IMG/VR virus record: IMGVR_UViG_3300044641_001164
Coordinates: 1-26,600 of that record
Source of the DNA: a virus
DNA: 26,600 bases
Strand: one strand, 5' to 3'
The notes beneath the pieces were generated by a model. That model made no database searches. It saw only the letters and a program-made list of their open reading frames with translations, and had not been told where the DNA came from. A program made the translations under genes and the position numbers. This document shows positions 7,064 to 26,600 of this stretch, piece after piece (positions within the stretch are counted from its first letter, which is position 1; each line of letters opens with the position of its first letter).

Positions 7064-7072
7064 TGTTATAAT
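7064..7072 (+). promoter_or_regulatory. extended -10 promoter for the 638-residue fibre gene
   Basis: TGT TATAAT just after the stop at 7058. The predicted start near 7079 gives a ~24-nt leader with a strong GGAGGA ribosome site at 7089-7094. No -35 is evident. Confidence 0.7.
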
Positions 7073-9179: not shown

Positions 9180-11213
9180 ATGTCAGAAACCGTATTCTCT
9201 TTTCGTCTTTCAGATGAATTTGTAAATAAATATAATAACACTCCAGCCCCATTTGGATTCTCAGATGCAGGGTCTAACTCATTAGGAGAGATTACTTTTA
9301 TTCGTACATATTCTCGTGTTAAAGAAGATGGAACTAAGGAACGCTGGCATGAGGTTTGTCGTCGTGTAATCGAGGGTATGTATTCAGTACAGAAGAATCA
9401 TGCTAAGGATAACCGCCTTCCCTGGAATGACAACAAGGCACAGAAGTCTGCTCAAGAAGCCTTTCAAAGAATGTTTGAATTAAAGTGGACACCACCAGGT
9501 CGTGGTCTCTGGGCATTTGGTACTCCTATGACTATGGAGAAGCGTAACTCGGCATCCCTTCAGAATTGTGCTATGGTCTCTACTCGTGACCTTGATCGCA
9601 ATGATCCAGGAGCCCTATTTGCGTGGGTAATGGATGCATTAATGTTGGGTATTGGTGTAGGGTTTGATACCCTTGGACAAGACAAGCAGATGTCTATTTA
9701 TGCTCCTACAGAGCCAGCCTCAGTCTATGAAATCCCAGATACTCGTGAGGGATGGGTAGAGTCTGTTCGTATTTTGATCAATTCATTTTTGCGTCAGAAT
9801 CAGCCAATTCAGGAGTTTACTTATGACCTTATCCGCCCTCTAGGAGCCCCTATTAAGGGCTTTGGAGGCGTTGCAAGCGGTCCAGCACCACTTATTGATC
9901 TCCATACACGCATTCGTAATGTAATCGGTTCTAGAGCGGGAGAAGCATTAGACAGCCGTGCTATTGTAGACCTTGTTAATCTTATTGGTACCTGTGTTGT
10001 TTCTGGAAATGTTCGTCGTTCTGCAACTCTTGCTTTAGGTACACCAGAAGATGAAGGTTTTATTAATCTTAAGAATCCAGAAGTATTTCCAGAAAGAAAT
10101 TCATATGATCCACAAAAACCAGGTTGGGCATGGATGAGTAATAACTCAATTGCTGCTGAGGTTGGAACTAAGTATGAAGACTATGTAGATTTAATTGCAG
10201 ACAACGGAGAACCAGGTTTTATCTGGCTTGATGTTGCTCGTGATTATGGCCGTCTTGCGGATGCACCTGATTACAAGGACACTCGCATTATGGGCTTTAA
10301 CCCTTGTGCGGAGCAGCCATTGGAAAGTTACGAATTATGTACACTTGTAGAAGTGCACTTAAATCGTCATGACTCCAAGGAGGACTTCCTCAAGACGTTA
10401 AAGTTTGCTTACTTGTATGGAAAGACTGTAACACTTATGCCAACACATTGGCAACAGACAAACGGTATCATGCAGCGTAATCGCCGTATTGGTACATCTC
10501 TTACTGGCATTGCTGCATTTGCAGACGAGCACGGTCTTCCAGTTATTCGTGAATGGATGGACGAGGGATATAGTACAATTCGTAAATATGATCATTCATA
10601 TTCTGAATGGCTTTGTGTTCGTGAGTCAGTTCGTGTAACAACAGTTAAGCCATCAGGATCTGTTTCACTACTTTCTGGTGCTACCCCTGGAGTTCACTGG
10701 GGACCAGGTGGAGAATTTTATCTTCGTGCAATACGTTTTGGAAACACAGATCCTATGATGCATTTATTTAAGGCAGCGGGATATAGAATTGAAGACGACC
10801 TAGTATCAGCAAATACTTCAGTAGTATACTTCCCAGTTGCATCAGGACACAAGCGTTCTGAGAAGGAAGTTAGCCTATTTGAAAAGATTGGTTTGGCAGC
10901 GACTGCTCAGAAGTACTGGTCAGATAATGGTGTTTCTGTAACGCTTTCATTTGATAAAGAAAATGAAAAGAAGTTTATCGCTCCTGCACTAAATATGTAT
11001 GAGGGACAACTAAAGGCAGTTTCATTTTTACCAATGGGAGATAAAATTTATCCTCAGCAGCCATATTCAGAAATAACAAGAGAAGAATACAATGCATATG
11101 TAGGCAAGATTGGCAAGATTGATTGGTCTGCTATTTATGACGGTATAGAAAATCTTGAGGCTGCTGGAGAAGCATACTGCTCAACTGACGCTTGTGAGAT
11201 TAAGTTTTATTAG
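9180..11213 (+). CDS. nrdJ: adenosylcobalamin-dependent (class II) ribonucleotide reductase, monomeric type
   Basis: This 677-residue enzyme reduces ribonucleoside triphosphates (or diphosphates) to deoxyribonucleotides using adenosylcobalamin as radical source. The active site is clear: Cys130 (QNCAM) and Cys387 (ELC) as the redox pair, and Cys376 in NPCAE (374-378) as the thiyl radical site, with Asn374 and Glu378. The 11-residue spacing from Cys376 to Cys387 equals that in the Lactobacillus leichmannii enzyme. C-terminal Cys667 and Cys672 (CSTDAC) are the re-reducing pair. NVRRSA at 277-282 and KPSGSVS at 490-496 are also family motifs. It is a little shorter than the ~740-residue reference. 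A GAAAGG site lies 10 nt before ATG. Arginine codons are mostly CGT/CGC, unlike the oxygenase operon. It supplies dNTPs for phage replication. Confidence 0.93.
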   Translation: MSETVFSFRLSDEFVNKYNNTPAPFGFSDAGSNSLGEITFIRTYSRVKEDGTKERWHEVCRRVIEGMYSVQKNHAKDNRLPWNDNKAQKSAQEAFQRMFELKWTPPGRGLWAFGTPMTMEKRNSASLQNCAMVSTRDLDRNDPGALFAWVMDALMLGIGVGFDTLGQDKQMSIYAPTEPASVYEIPDTREGWVESVRILINSFLRQNQPIQEFTYDLIRPLGAPIKGFGGVASGPAPLIDLHTRIRNVIGSRAGEALDSRAIVDLVNLIGTCVVSGNVRRSATLALGTPEDEGFINLKNPEVFPERNSYDPQKPGWAWMSNNSIAAEVGTKYEDYVDLIADNGEPGFIWLDVARDYGRLADAPDYKDTRIMGFNPCAEQPLESYELCTLVEVHLNRHDSKEDFLKTLKFAYLYGKTVTLMPTHWQQTNGIMQRNRRIGTSLTGIAAFADEHGLPVIREWMDEGYSTIRKYDHSYSEWLCVRESVRVTTVKPSGSVSLLSGATPGVHWGPGGEFYLRAIRFGNTDPMMHLFKAAGYRIEDDLVSANTSVVYFPVASGHKRSEKEVSLFEKIGLAATAQKYWSDNGVSVTLSFDKENEKKFIAPALNMYEGQLKAVSFLPMGDKIYPQQPYSEITREEYNAYVGKIGKIDWSAIYDGIENLEAAGEAYCSTDACEIKFY

Positions 11214-19458: not shown

Positions 19459-19674
19459 ATGTCTTATCCAGGAAGTGCACCAGAAGAACATAATCACCGT
19501 AGTGGTGGATGCATTGTTGCGGGTGGAGTAACTGGCACAGTTATATCTGGACCCAATGGGATCATATCTGAAAAAAATGCTTTAGGATGTATACCTACAG
19601 CAAATTTTGGTGAGAACATCATTATGTCTGGAACACCATCAGGAATTAGAAGACCCCAGACTCTGAGAAGATAA
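19459..19674 (+). CDS. free-standing paralogue of the capsid N-terminal arm
   Basis: This 71-residue protein matches the first ~84 residues of the major capsid protein next to it. By hand, residues 3-51 align without gaps to capsid residues 12-60 (20 of 49 identical: YPGS, the HxH pair, GP.G, LG.I.TA.FG). After a 4-residue gap, residues 58-71 align to capsid 71-84 (8 of 14 identical: GTP.GI..P....RR). It stops right after the RR where the capsid fold proper begins. AGGGAG precedes the ATG and no promoter of its own is obvious, so it should be read through the hairpin after the capsid gene. It may be a minor capsid component, an assembly modulator or a relic. A complete frame and own ribosome site argue against a dead relic. 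Confidence 0.78.
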   Translation: MSYPGSAPEEHNHRSGGCIVAGGVTGTVISGPNGIISEKNALGCIPTANFGENIIMSGTPSGIRRPQTLRR

Positions 19675-22838: not shown

Positions 22839-23474
22839 ATGGCATATAGTCGTGGTTCGTCAACTAACATCATCGTTGGAGCAGCAGCACTTTTCGTTGC
22901 AGATACAACACTATCAGCAAATACCCTAGAGGCATTTGACGGTACAGAGTCTTTTAGAGAGACACTTGCAGATGATTCAGGTTATACAAACGTAGGTTAC
23001 ACCATGAACGGTCTTGAATTGCAGTTCCAGCCTGACTTCGGCGAAGTACAGGTTGACCAGATTCTTGACGTTGCTAAACTTTATAAGCAGGGCATGCAGG
23101 TAAATCTTGCAACTGCTTTTGCTGAGGCTACACTAGAGAACCTTCTCTTGGCTTTGGCATTCAGCGATTCACAATTGACAGGTACAAAGTCAACATCTAA
23201 CGGACAGGTTCTTAACCTTTCTGCAGGTGAACTTGGCGAATGTCCAGTTGAGCGTGGTATCGTTGCAATCGGTCCTGGTACAGGTGATTGCGTAGACTCT
23301 GCAACAGTAGAGCGTGTCTATACAGCATACCGTGCACTCTCAATTGAGAATGTAACAGTATCTGCAAAGCGTGATGAGGCTTCAATGTTTGAAGTATCAT
23401 TCCGTCTCCTTCCAGAGGACACATCTGGTTCATACGGTAAGATCGTAGATCGTACTTTCGATCCAGCATCATAA
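22839..23474 (+). CDS. major tail tube protein
   Basis: A 211-residue tube subunit. Early strands (TNIIVGAAALFVAD) are followed by SFRETLADDSGYTNVGYTMNGLELQFQPDFGEVQVDQILD, a pattern typical of siphovirus tube proteins: a loop, then a beta-hairpin that builds the inner tube wall. A helix ATAFAEATLENLLLALAFS and a late strand MFEVSFRLLPEDT complete the fold. It is a single gene flanked by its own promoter and a strong terminator, with no sheath gene, which points to a non-contractile tail. Codons are strongly biased (mainly CGT for Arg), matching an abundant structural protein. It is followed by the tail chaperones and tape measure, the usual order. Confidence 0.87.
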   Translation: MAYSRGSSTNIIVGAAALFVADTTLSANTLEAFDGTESFRETLADDSGYTNVGYTMNGLELQFQPDFGEVQVDQILDVAKLYKQGMQVNLATAFAEATLENLLLALAFSDSQLTGTKSTSNGQVLNLSAGELGECPVERGIVAIGPGTGDCVDSATVERVYTAYRALSIENVTVSAKRDEASMFEVSFRLLPEDTSGSYGKIVDRTFDPAS

Positions 23475-23495
23475 TTTAAATAATTATACGACTTG

Positions 23496-23517
23496 GCCCA
23501 TCTCTTCGGAGGTGGGC
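23496..23517 (+). terminator. intrinsic terminator with C(TTCG)G loop
   Basis: A 9-bp stem (GCCCATCTC/GAGGTGGGC, one T-G pair) closed by a TTCG loop between C and G, the very stable UUCG tetraloop in RNA. It is followed by TTTGTTGTTTTA. It isolates the tail-tube transcript from the chaperone genes. Confidence 0.88.
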
Positions 23518-23529
23518 TTTGTTGTTTTA

Positions 23530-23538
23530 TGATAGAAT
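23530..23538 (+). promoter_or_regulatory. extended -10 promoter, leaderless start at 23548
   Basis: TGA TAGAAT, one base off the consensus, with 9 nt to the ATG at 23548, the same spacing as at 2968 and 16909. The in-frame ATG at 23542 is only 3 nt from the -10 box and would lie upstream of the expected transcript start. Confidence 0.62.
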
Positions 23539-23547
23539 AGAATGTCT

Positions 23548-24237
23548 ATGGCAACCACAGTATATAATAGTGATTTTATTACACTAGTAAATAATAAAAC
23601 AATTGAGATTACTCCACTTAAGATTAAATATCTTCGTGAGTTTATGGTTGCTTTTGATAAAATTAAAGGTGCACAAACTGACGATGAATCTATAGTTGTT
23701 CTTGTTGAGTGTGCAAGAATTTGTATGAAACAGTATTGTCCAGAAATATCATCTACTACTTTAGATGTAGAAAATAATGTAGACTTGCCAACAATATATA
23801 AAGTGCTAGAGGTTGCTGCAGGTATTAAGATAAATAAGTCATCTGAAGAACCAGTAAAAGAGCAAGCAGAAAAAGGAAATACTTGGGCTGATCTAGATCT
23901 TGCTAAGTTAGAAGCAGAGGTATTTTTGCTGGGAATTTGGAAAGACTATCAAGAACTAGAACTATCTTTATCTATGCCAGAGTTAATGGCAACGCTAGAT
24001 ATAAGCAGAGAGTTAGATTATTCAGAAAAAAAGTTTTTGGCTGCAATTCAGGGGGTAGATCTAGATGCCGAGTCTGGTAAAAAACGAGGGCAGCAAGAGT
24101 GGGAAGACATGAAGGCTAGAGTATTTAGCGGTGGTCAAACAAGTGATTCAAATGACGTATTATCTCTTCAAGGACCAAAGGCTAAGCAACTCGGGTTTGG
24201 TATTGGCATGGGACTAGATTACGAAAATCTAACATAA
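23548..24237 (+). CDS. long tail assembly chaperone (G-T-like, single frame)
   Basis: A 229-residue protein that joins, in one reading frame, the two parts usually linked by a programmed frameshift. Residues 1-~97 are the short-chaperone domain (PLKIKYLREFM, then ECARICMKQYCPE, VDLPTIYKVLEVAAG). Residues ~112-175 are the extension typical of the frameshifted half (LAKLEAEVFLLGIWKDYQE, then LPELMATLDI-like helix and KKFLAAIQGVDLD). The end is polar (KGKKRGQQEWEDMKARVF region). These proteins coat the tape measure while the tube polymerises. I chose the ATG at 23548 because it fits the leaderless spacing and gives the same MATTV start as its paralogue downstream. The gene sits between two promoters. 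Confidence 0.8.
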   Translation: MATTVYNSDFITLVNNKTIEITPLKIKYLREFMVAFDKIKGAQTDDESIVVLVECARICMKQYCPEISSTTLDVENNVDLPTIYKVLEVAAGIKINKSSEEPVKEQAEKGNTWADLDLAKLEAEVFLLGIWKDYQELELSLSMPELMATLDISRELDYSEKKFLAAIQGVDLDAESGKKRGQQEWEDMKARVFSGGQTSDSNDVLSLQGPKAKQLGFGIGMGLDYENLT

Positions 24238-24240
24238 AAA

Positions 24241-24273
24241 TAGGCTTGTTTGTGCTATAATTAAGGAAGCCTA
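24241..24273. repeat. inverted repeat bracketing the short-chaperone promoter
   Basis: A perfect 7-bp inverted repeat, TAGGCTT (24241-24247) and AAGCCTA (24267-24273), whose 19-nt interval contains the extended -10 box. A 10-nt palindrome CCTATATAGG (24270-24279) runs from its right arm into the ribosome site. It may be an operator or form a leader structure. Confidence 0.45.
24253..24261 (+). promoter_or_regulatory. extended -10 promoter for the short chaperone and tape measure
   Basis: TGC TATAAT, full consensus, giving a predicted start near 24268 and a ~19-nt leader with AGGAGG at 24277-24282, 4 nt before the ATG. There is no -35. Confidence 0.72.
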
Positions 24274-24286
24274 TATAGGAGGAAAA

Positions 24287-24619
24287 ATGGCAACAACAGT
24301 ACATGAGGGTAGAGAACTTATTCTTATGGATGGATCAAAGATTAGCGTTAGACCGCTTAAGATTTCTTTGCTTCGCCCATTTATGAGTAAGTTTGAAAAG
24401 GTAGCAGAGGTGGCAGAAGATAACGAAAAGTCAATGGCTCTTCTTATGGAATGCGTACAGATTGCTATGGAGCAATTCAGTCCAGAACTTGCAAAAGATA
24501 AGGATAAACTAGAAGACATTCTTGATCTTCCAACAGTTTATGAAATTATTGAAGCAGCCTCTGGAGTTAAACTATCAGATGCAAATGCTTTGTTAAACAC
24601 AGTACTTGCAAACAATTAA
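24287..24619 (+). CDS. short tail assembly chaperone (G-like paralogue)
   Basis: A 110-residue protein that aligns along its length with residues 1-97 of the gene before it, with about a third of residues identical and one single-residue shift. Shared blocks are MATTV, PLKI..LR.FM, EC..I.M.Q..PE and DLPT.Y..E.A.G.K. It has no extension and ends at TAA 24617-24619, 22 nt before the tape measure, so no downstream frame is available for a frameshift product. A consensus promoter and AGGAGG site suggest strong expression. It should supply the abundant short chaperone that coats the tape measure, with the upstream gene supplying the rarer long form. Confidence 0.8.
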   Translation: MATTVHEGRELILMDGSKISVRPLKISLLRPFMSKFEKVAEVAEDNEKSMALLMECVQIAMEQFSPELAKDKDKLEDILDLPTVYEIIEAASGVKLSDANALLNTVLANN

Positions 24620-24641: not shown

Positions 24642-26600
24642 ATGGCTGACGTAAATGCTAATATTGGCGTACATATTGATGCGTCTGCAGCACTTGCGGA
24701 ACTAAAAAATCTACAGCGTCAACTAGCCACCTTTCATGCGTCCATCGCTAAGGGCAGTGCTGCTAGTGCTATGGCACAAAAGAATTTACAGACTAACCTC
24801 TTAAATTCTATAAATGCTACAGGACAGTTCACTGCCCAGATGGGCCTTGTTAGAACATCAACAGAATCATTTACTCATGCTCTAGAGAAAAATAAACTAG
24901 GCATGAAGGAGTACTTCCGATATGCTGGAGGTGCTACAAAAACTTTTGGTAGACTATTTAAATCAGAGTTTGACACCATTGAGCAGGTTGCTCAAGAGCG
25001 TGTAAAGAGGATGCAGACCCAGTTTATCAAGATGGGTCGTGATGCAAACGGTGCAATGAAGGCTATGGCAATTACGCCAAATGCACTAAACATGAAAGAC
25101 TTTGGAACACAAACTCAGATCGCAGCCCAGAAGCAAGCACTATTTAATCAGTTAGTTAGACAGGGTTCTACAAACCTTCTAAACTTTGGTAAGAACACTC
25201 AGTGGGCAGGTCGCCAGTTGATGGTTGGTTTTACAGTCCCTCTTGCATATCTTGGAACTGTTGCTTCAAAAACATTCATGGACTTAGAAAAACAAGCAAT
25301 TAGGTTTAGGCGTGTTTATGGTGATATGTTTACAACAACAGAAGATACCACCAAAGCACTTAAAGAGATTGAACTACTAGCACAAAGTTTTACTAAGTAT
25401 GGCGTTGCAGTAGTAGATACTATGGAGATGGCTGCAGATGCAGCAGCAATGGGTAAGACTGGTGCAGACTTAACCGCACAGGTTGCACAAGCAACTAGAC
25501 TTGCAGTCCTTGGTAGCGTAGAGCAGCAGCAAGCATTAGAGACAACGATATCACTAACAAACGCTTTTGGTGTAGCAGCAGAAGACTTAACTTCAAAGAT
25601 TGACTTCTTAAACTCAGTAGAAAACCAAACAGTTGTATCTATTGAAGATTTAACAATTGCGATTCCAAAGGCTGGTCCAGTTGTTCAGCAACTTGGTGGA
25701 GATGTAGAAGATCTTGCGTTCTTCCTCACAGCAATGAAGGAAGGTGGAATCAATGCATCCGAAGGAGCAAACGCACTTAAGTCTGGTCTTGCATCTTTAA
25801 TTAATCCAAGTAAGAAAGCCTCTGCATTCCTTGCTGATCTTGGTGTTAACATTAATGCCATTGTTGAAAATAACCAAGGAAACATTAGAGATACTGTTAT
25901 TGATTTTTCTAGAGCACTCGATACACTAGACCCTCTTAACCGTGCTCGTGCAATTGAGCAACTTTTTGGTAAGTTCCAGTTCTCACGTTTATCAACACTG
26001 TTTCAGAACGTAACAAAAGACGGAACACAGGCTGCTAGAGTTTTGCAACTTGCAACATCTTCTGTTGAAGAACTTGCTATATTGTCAGAAAGAGAATTAA
26101 AAGCAGTTGAAGATTCAGTTGGAACAAACTTTAAGGCAGCGGTAGAAGAACTTAAACTAACTCTTGCTCCAATTGGTAAGGAATTCTTAAAGGCTGTCAC
26201 TCCAATTATCAAGGTTGTTGGAGATGTTCTTGAAAAATTTAATGGACTTAGCGAAGGCACCAAAAAGTTTATTGTAGTAGCAACCGCTCTTGTAGGATTA
26301 ATTGGTCCTACACTTCTGATGACTTTTGGTTTGCTTGCTAACGGTGCAGCAAACATAATTAAACTATTCCTTGCTTTGCGTATGGGATTTATGAAACTTG
26401 GCGGGAACTCAAAGATACTTGCTGAACAAACCAACTACATGACAATGGAGCAGTTAGAAGCAGCAACTGTAGCAACATCACTTAATCAAGCACACACAAG
26501 ACTTACTCAATCCTTTAACGTAGAAACAGTAGCAGTTAAAGCATTACGTCAAGCATATGTAGAAGCAACTATTGCAGCAGCAAACTTTGCTAGATCAAAC
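24642..26600 (+). CDS. tape measure protein, N-terminal part
   Basis: The reading frame starts at ATG 24642 and stays open to the last base (653 codons, incomplete). The tape measure sets tail length and lies inside the tube. The first ~45 residues are MADVNANIGVHIDASAALAE, then a helix. Residues ~190-208 are hydrophobic (MVGFTVPLAYLG). Residues ~215-470 resemble the TP901-type tape-measure core (FMDLEKQAIRFRRVYGDM, then MEMAADAAAMGKTGADL, GGDVEDLAFFLTAMKEGG, LDPLNRARAIEQLFGKFQF). A second hydrophobic segment lies at ~543-570 (KFIVVATALVGLIGPTLLM). The rest is helical and Ala-rich. A weak AAAAGG lies about 10 nt upstream. It follows the two chaperones, the classical order. Confidence 0.9.
   Translation, partial: MADVNANIGVHIDASAALAELKNLQRQLATFHASIAKGSAASAMAQKNLQTNLLNSINATGQFTAQMGLVRTSTESFTHALEKNKLGMKEYFRYAGGATKTFGRLFKSEFDTIEQVAQERVKRMQTQFIKMGRDANGAMKAMAITPNALNMKDFGTQTQIAAQKQALFNQLVRQGSTNLLNFGKNTQWAGRQLMVGFTVPLAYLGTVASKTFMDLEKQAIRFRRVYGDMFTTTEDTTKALKEIELLAQSFTKYGVAVVDTMEMAADAAAMGKTGADLTAQVAQATRLAVLGSVEQQQALETTISLTNAFGVAAEDLTSKIDFLNSVENQTVVSIEDLTIAIPKAGPVVQQLGGDVEDLAFFLTAMKEGGINASEGANALKSGLASLINPSKKASAFLADLGVNINAIVENNQGNIRDTVIDFSRALDTLDPLNRARAIEQLFGKFQFSRLSTLFQNVTKDGTQAARVLQLATSSVEELAILSERELKAVEDSVGTNFKAAVEELKLTLAPIGKEFLKAVTPIIKVVGDVLEKFNGLSEGTKKFIVVATALVGLIGPTLLMTFGLLANGAANIIKLFLALRMGFMKLGGNSKILAEQTNYMTMEQLEAATVATSLNQAHTRLTQSFNVETVAVKALRQAYVEATIAAANFARSN

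Follow-up and report, generated by a model that had tools for sequence, protein, structure and literature searches.

A pair of tail assembly chaperone genes, probably derived by duplication, in place of a programmed frameshift in a viral clade related to long-tailed Streptomyces phages

The DNA analyzed here is a 26.6 kb viral fragment (the window), in which two related genes lie between those for the major tail protein and the tape measure protein, the position occupied by tail assembly chaperones in siphoviruses; all features described for this locus are on the + strand. The upstream neighbor (22839–23474) matches phrog_2175 (Ig-domain protein; E 2.8e-35) and aligns in position with the annotated major tail proteins of the Streptomyces phages Francob, Coruscant, and Faust. 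Between this gene and the first chaperone promoter, a terminator-like structure was found at 23495–23528, composed of a hairpin (23495–23518) and a T tract. It is followed by the extended -10 element TGATAGAAT (23530–23538), which ends 9 nt before the ATG at 23548; a ribosome-binding site is absent, and the predicted transcription start coincides with the ATG or lies within about 3 nt of it, so that the message would be leaderless. The long gene (23548–24237) contains no internal stop codon, also when read from a further ATG at 23542; since close relatives lack the latter and keep the former, 23548 was taken as the conserved start. Its product joins, in a single frame, an N-terminal G-like domain (residues 1–99; 23548–23844) and a C-terminal T domain (23887–24234), which matches phrog_10474 over residues 132–193. 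A second extended -10 element, TGCTATAAT (24253–24261), and the ribosome-binding site AGGAGG (24277–24282) precede the short gene (24287–24619), which is a separate G paralog according to its ORF, homology, and position in the G tree. Its stop codon is separated by a gap of 22 nt from the ATG of the tape measure gene (24642–26600), which runs off the window and was recognized through phrog_10030 (E 1.1e-100) and the Pfam family PhageMin_Tail (3e-25).

A first-pass annotation of this DNA had proposed that gene duplication stands here in place of a programmed frameshift, with the long chaperone encoded in one uninterrupted frame and the short one by a separate paralog, and had suggested profile searches, structure prediction for the N-domains, and a survey of related phages as checks. 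The paralogy was borne out by BLASTP, in which the N-domains of the long and short proteins share 38% identity over 100 aa (E 3e-25), by profile searches, in which both match phrog_10504 (long, E 9.8e-20; short, E 6.1e-20), and by profile–profile comparison of the long N-domain with the short protein (probability 100, residues 1–99). Furthermore, AlphaFold models of both proteins, made from alignments of their relatives and of moderate confidence (pLDDT 69 for the long and 74 for the short protein), agree on the succession of elements in the N-domain, with strands at residues 9–12 and 18–21 and helices at 26–41, 45–64, approximately 71–78, and approximately 80–92. In BFVD (viral predictions), the short model is matched best by a protein named as a tail assembly chaperone (TM 0.77/0.81). 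The HK97 chaperone 2ob9 was listed at Z 4.1 (rmsd 5.8 over 87 residues), which is no proof of kinship, because unrelated folds score equally. Among solved structures, the long model matched just common helical arrangements (Z < 4), so the fold may still be a known one, and sequence searches of solved structures gave no credible relative.

The nearest annotated relatives of both genes are annotated as tail assembly chaperones in Streptomyces phages of the Stanwilliamsviridae, and the C-terminal half of the long protein is homologous to T of these phages, its T domain being about 50% identical to the T encoded in the -1 frame of frameshifting relatives. By homology and position, the two genes likely supply a long-tailed phage with its tail assembly chaperones, one in the long and one in the short form. 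Given the kinship to Streptomyces and Rhodococcus phages, our guess is that the host is actinobacterial. The G of the Rhodococcus phage NiceHouse had no relatives in the viral contigs, and no relatives were found in the genome contigs searched (prophage or binned).

In order to survey related loci, viral contigs were scanned five times, mostly around relatives of G or T, with one scan remaining empty, and loci were typed with profiles of G, T, and the tape measure protein. This resulted in 303 complete loci of two designs, the counts of which are not natural frequencies, because each scan yields just the hits that match its query best: 194 carry G and T in one frame together with a second, separate G before the tape measure gene, while 109 carry a single G followed by T in the -1 frame. 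After removal of near-copies at 93% identity of the tape-measure part, 73 two-gene and 48 frameshift-type representatives remained. The in-frame long gene and the short gene are present in all 73 representatives of the two-gene clade, whereas the 48 representatives outside it all encode T in the -1 frame behind a single G. The long form is encoded in one unbroken frame in 194/194 complete clade loci, i.e., it is not the product of a programmed -1 frameshift. A canonical slippery heptamer (XXXYYYZ), mostly CCCAAAC or CCCAAAT, was identified in 39 of the 48 frameshift-type representatives. The remaining 9 (Jay2Jay type, e.g., L162–L163) lack XXXYYYZ; the corresponding position is occupied by CCCGGAA, which might be a nonstandard slippery site.

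Two kinds of apparent exceptions were rejected. L259 and L260 resembled intermediates with two G copies, but each contains one G in which an insertion splits the profile match; in L259 (2573–3016), this frameshift-type G carries an insertion of about 30 residues ahead of the last helices. Moreover, three loci where a second G is missing next to the fused gene do not represent a third design, as they are cut off by the contig edge.

In a tree of T and the tape measure protein, the two-gene design forms one side of a branch (SH-aLRT 98) and is nested among the frameshifters, its nearest frameshifting lineages being L261 and L286, both of which carry the slippery heptamer GGGAAAC at the 3' end of G and encode T in the -1 frame. 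The design therefore has a single origin, and the nearest relatives still frameshift, which makes the switch itself visible in the sequences. In the G-domain tree, which was built on few columns, so that detail within the groups is not firm, the short genes join the G of L261 and L286, while the long N-domains all fall into a clade of their own, set off by a long stem. Likewise, at sites of consistent difference between long and short copies, the sister lineages mostly have the short state (e.g., S27, L28, N46, M50, L68, and S92). Since both the G tree and the sister residues side with the short gene, the latter is the ancestral, conservative copy and the long N-domain the diverged one. The median identity is 0.56 for the long N-domain, 0.67 for the short gene, and 0.73 for T, and 89% of genome pairs show a lower identity in the long N-domain than in the short gene, i.e., the long N-domain evolves faster. 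Together with the distribution of the two designs, these relationships support the proposal that duplication took over from frameshifting, although the link between the fusion and the extra G does not amount to a repeated natural experiment, because just one evolutionary switch was seen.

The expression signals of the two genes were compared across 72 representatives whose tape measures share less than 93% identity. A -10 element ending 5–9 nt before the start of the long gene was found in 71 of them, while a ribosome-binding site was found before none (0/72). By chance, an extended -10 element would stand 5–9 nt before any ATG in 1.3% of cases. The corresponding hexamers are TAGAAT (30), TATACT (15), TATAAT (14), TAAAAT (9), and TACAAT (3). 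The prediction of a leaderless long gene with an off-consensus -10 element therefore agrees in full with the sequence of the window and, with respect to spacing and the missing ribosome-binding site, with that of the clade, but the off-consensus hexamer is not general, as 14/72 relatives have TATAAT. Before the short gene, the extended -10 element TGNTATAAT was found in 72/72 representatives, with its hexamer (TATAAT) 23–43 nt from the start, and a ribosome-binding site in 70/72; TGNTATAAT is expected in 1.2% of random 55-nt windows. This agrees with the predicted promoter of its own that had been assigned to the short gene, comprising a full-consensus -10 and AGGAGG. No -35 element was reported for either the long or the short promoter, and both are of the extended -10 type. 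Terminator-like structures precede the promoter of the long gene in 65 of 71 representatives, whereas none was found between the long and short genes in the 73 representatives (0/73), including the window, so that the short gene may also be co-read from the transcript of the long gene. In frameshifting relatives, G has a leader, and a ribosome-binding site was found in 45/48, so the leaderless condition of the long gene is a derived one.

The explanation that accounts best for these data, and which we consider likely to be correct as a whole, starts from an ancestor in which a single G gene preceded a -1 frame T and the long form would have been made through a programmed -1 frameshift. G would then have been duplicated once, in the ancestor of the two-gene clade, with the upstream copy becoming fused in frame to T via a new linker and the downstream copy retaining the old G sequence, its T having been lost or never having been there. 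From then on, the short:long ratio would have come from expression instead of recoding: the long gene would depend on a leaderless promoter that lies downstream of a terminator and in most cases deviates from the consensus, and the short gene would combine an extended -10 promoter of consensus sequence with a leader and a strong ribosome-binding site, to which read-through from the long gene might add.

As in the first-pass annotation, we infer that promoter and ribosome-site strength may set the short:long ratio, which fits the conserved contrast of signals, and the consensus -10, the ribosome-binding site, and the possible read-through suggest that the short form would be in excess. The part of this proposal that concerns -10 strength is weaker than that concerning leaderless versus ribosome-site-dependent initiation, because of the 14 long genes with a consensus -10. 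In M. smegmatis, translation was not found to be clearly poorer for leaderless messages, although their predicted transcript production was lower (PMC7148126). G outnumbers G-T roughly 30:1 in the coat of the lambda tape measure, where T serves to recruit the major tail protein (PMC5009743). By homology and position, the two proteins described here likely do the same job, with their ratio adjusted via separate promoters and different modes of translation initiation. A more specific version holds that the N-domains specialized once they were separate, with the long protein becoming a dedicated initiator with an interface of its own and the paired leaderless and leadered promoters tuning the ratio clade-wide; we regard this as tentative, though plausible. 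If true, it would represent a transcriptional replacement for ribosomal recoding that has been kept across the whole clade.

The faster evolution of the long N-domain, which has its own fixed residues, could also be explained if the short gene were the entire functional chaperone and the long gene had been repurposed, e.g., as a dedicated initiator or carrier of the major tail protein, making the ratio irrelevant. This is unlikely, considering that the long N-domain retains the fold and core residues and that both domains of the long protein are kept in 73/73 representatives. Less likely still is that one long transcript mainly serves both genes, with the ratio depending on ribosome-site strength alone and the TATAAT of the short gene being secondary; while such a transcript would agree with the lack of terminator-like sites between the genes, it does not account for the conservation of TGNTATAAT before every short gene, even where it overlaps the region of the long-gene stop codon.

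Compared with these alternatives, a frameshift within the two-gene clade fares worst. In-frame slippery heptamers of mixed kinds occur in 9/73 linker regions of the long gene and at 13/73 ends of the short gene, but none is conserved in kind or place among the 73 representatives, and the idea that these sporadic heptamers are remnants of a frameshift was therefore rejected; the slippery site of the frameshifting relatives has been lost. The inference that no T-frame can follow the short gene, originally drawn from the 22-nt gap, proved correct, since the -1 frame past this gene closes at most 25 codons from its stop and encodes no T. A shift of ribosomes out of the short gene and into that for the tape measure protein was rejected as well: the relative frame of the two genes varies (35:22:16 among 73 representatives), i.e., there is no fixed link between them. 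Thus, while TTTAAAT, TTTAAAC, or similar heptamers are found near the end of 12/73 short genes, their inconstant kind and place, the early closure of the -1 frame, and the variable frame of the tape measure gene make it highly improbable that a programmed frameshift persists which shortens the product of the long gene or extends that of the short gene.

The duplication-based arrangement shares with the lambda-type G/G-T system (Levin 1993; Xu 2004; as cited in PMC5009743) the short and long forms with a common N-domain, the place before the tape measure gene, and the T domain restricted to the long form. It differs in that no frameshift is involved, the long form being encoded in one frame and the short form by a separate, diverged gene. 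With the Stanwilliamsviridae (Jay2Jay, Francob, Coruscant, and Faust) and their uncultured relatives, it has the protein families and gene neighbors in common (G here is 32–38% identical to Francob G, and T approximately 37–46% to Jay2Jay T), whereas those phages possess a single G with T in the -1 frame, mostly at CCCAAAY or similar heptamers; in Francob, G and the -1 T are annotated as a joined gene. For some T4-like phages, the PRFect authors describe, with reference to Vladimirov 2022, one short and one longer fused gene without a frameshift (PMC10885494). As far as that description goes, the same arrangement is found here, with a short gene and a fused longer gene that share an N-domain; the T4-like phages have contractile tails and belong to another lineage, and the two arrangements are likely convergent. 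In some subclusters of Microbacterium cluster EA (PMC7302621), two chaperone ORFs are separately expressed with no evident frameshift, but these constitute an ORF pair for which no fused long copy is reported there.

The two-gene principle is therefore already known, as the T4-like precedent is stated in PMC10885494. Within the literature searched, and an earlier report may exist, its occurrence in an uncultured, actinophage-like lineage akin to long-tailed Streptomyces phages is new, as are the visibility of the ancestral frameshift state in sister lineages, the knowledge of which copy is ancestral, and the conservation of a leaderless and a leadered promoter as a pair. The short:long chaperone ratio is the textbook reason for the retention of programmed frameshifting in phage tail operons. 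Because the clade keeps both proteins without a frameshift while its sisters keep the frameshift, the need for frameshifting can be tested directly, apart from the need for two forms in the right amounts. Moreover, as the long and short N-domains have separate sequences, residues important to each form become visible that are hidden when one gene makes both.

Beyond the chaperone locus, extended -10 motifs occur on the + strand in most intergenic gaps of the window (2950, 4137, 7064, 11223, 16891, 19678, 23530, and 24253). Those at 2950, 16891, and 23530 stand exactly 18 nt from an ATG, pointing to leaderless expression as a general trait of this phage, while those at 7064, 11223, and 19678 have leaders. 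Among these sites, the TAGAAT hexamer was found only at the long chaperone gene. Right after the major capsid gene, a 71-aa gene (19459–19674), which is preceded by a hairpin, encodes a paralog of the N-terminus of the capsid protein (38% identity over 74 columns, E 1e-15) and is conserved, with relatives in 39 viral loci. Furthermore, two 2OG-Fe(II) oxygenase-like genes and a short-chain reductase-like gene adjoin each other upstream of tail-fiber-like genes (175–2233), and a ribonucleotide reductase gene (9180–11213) is located within the structural region, between the fiber-like genes and the portal gene.
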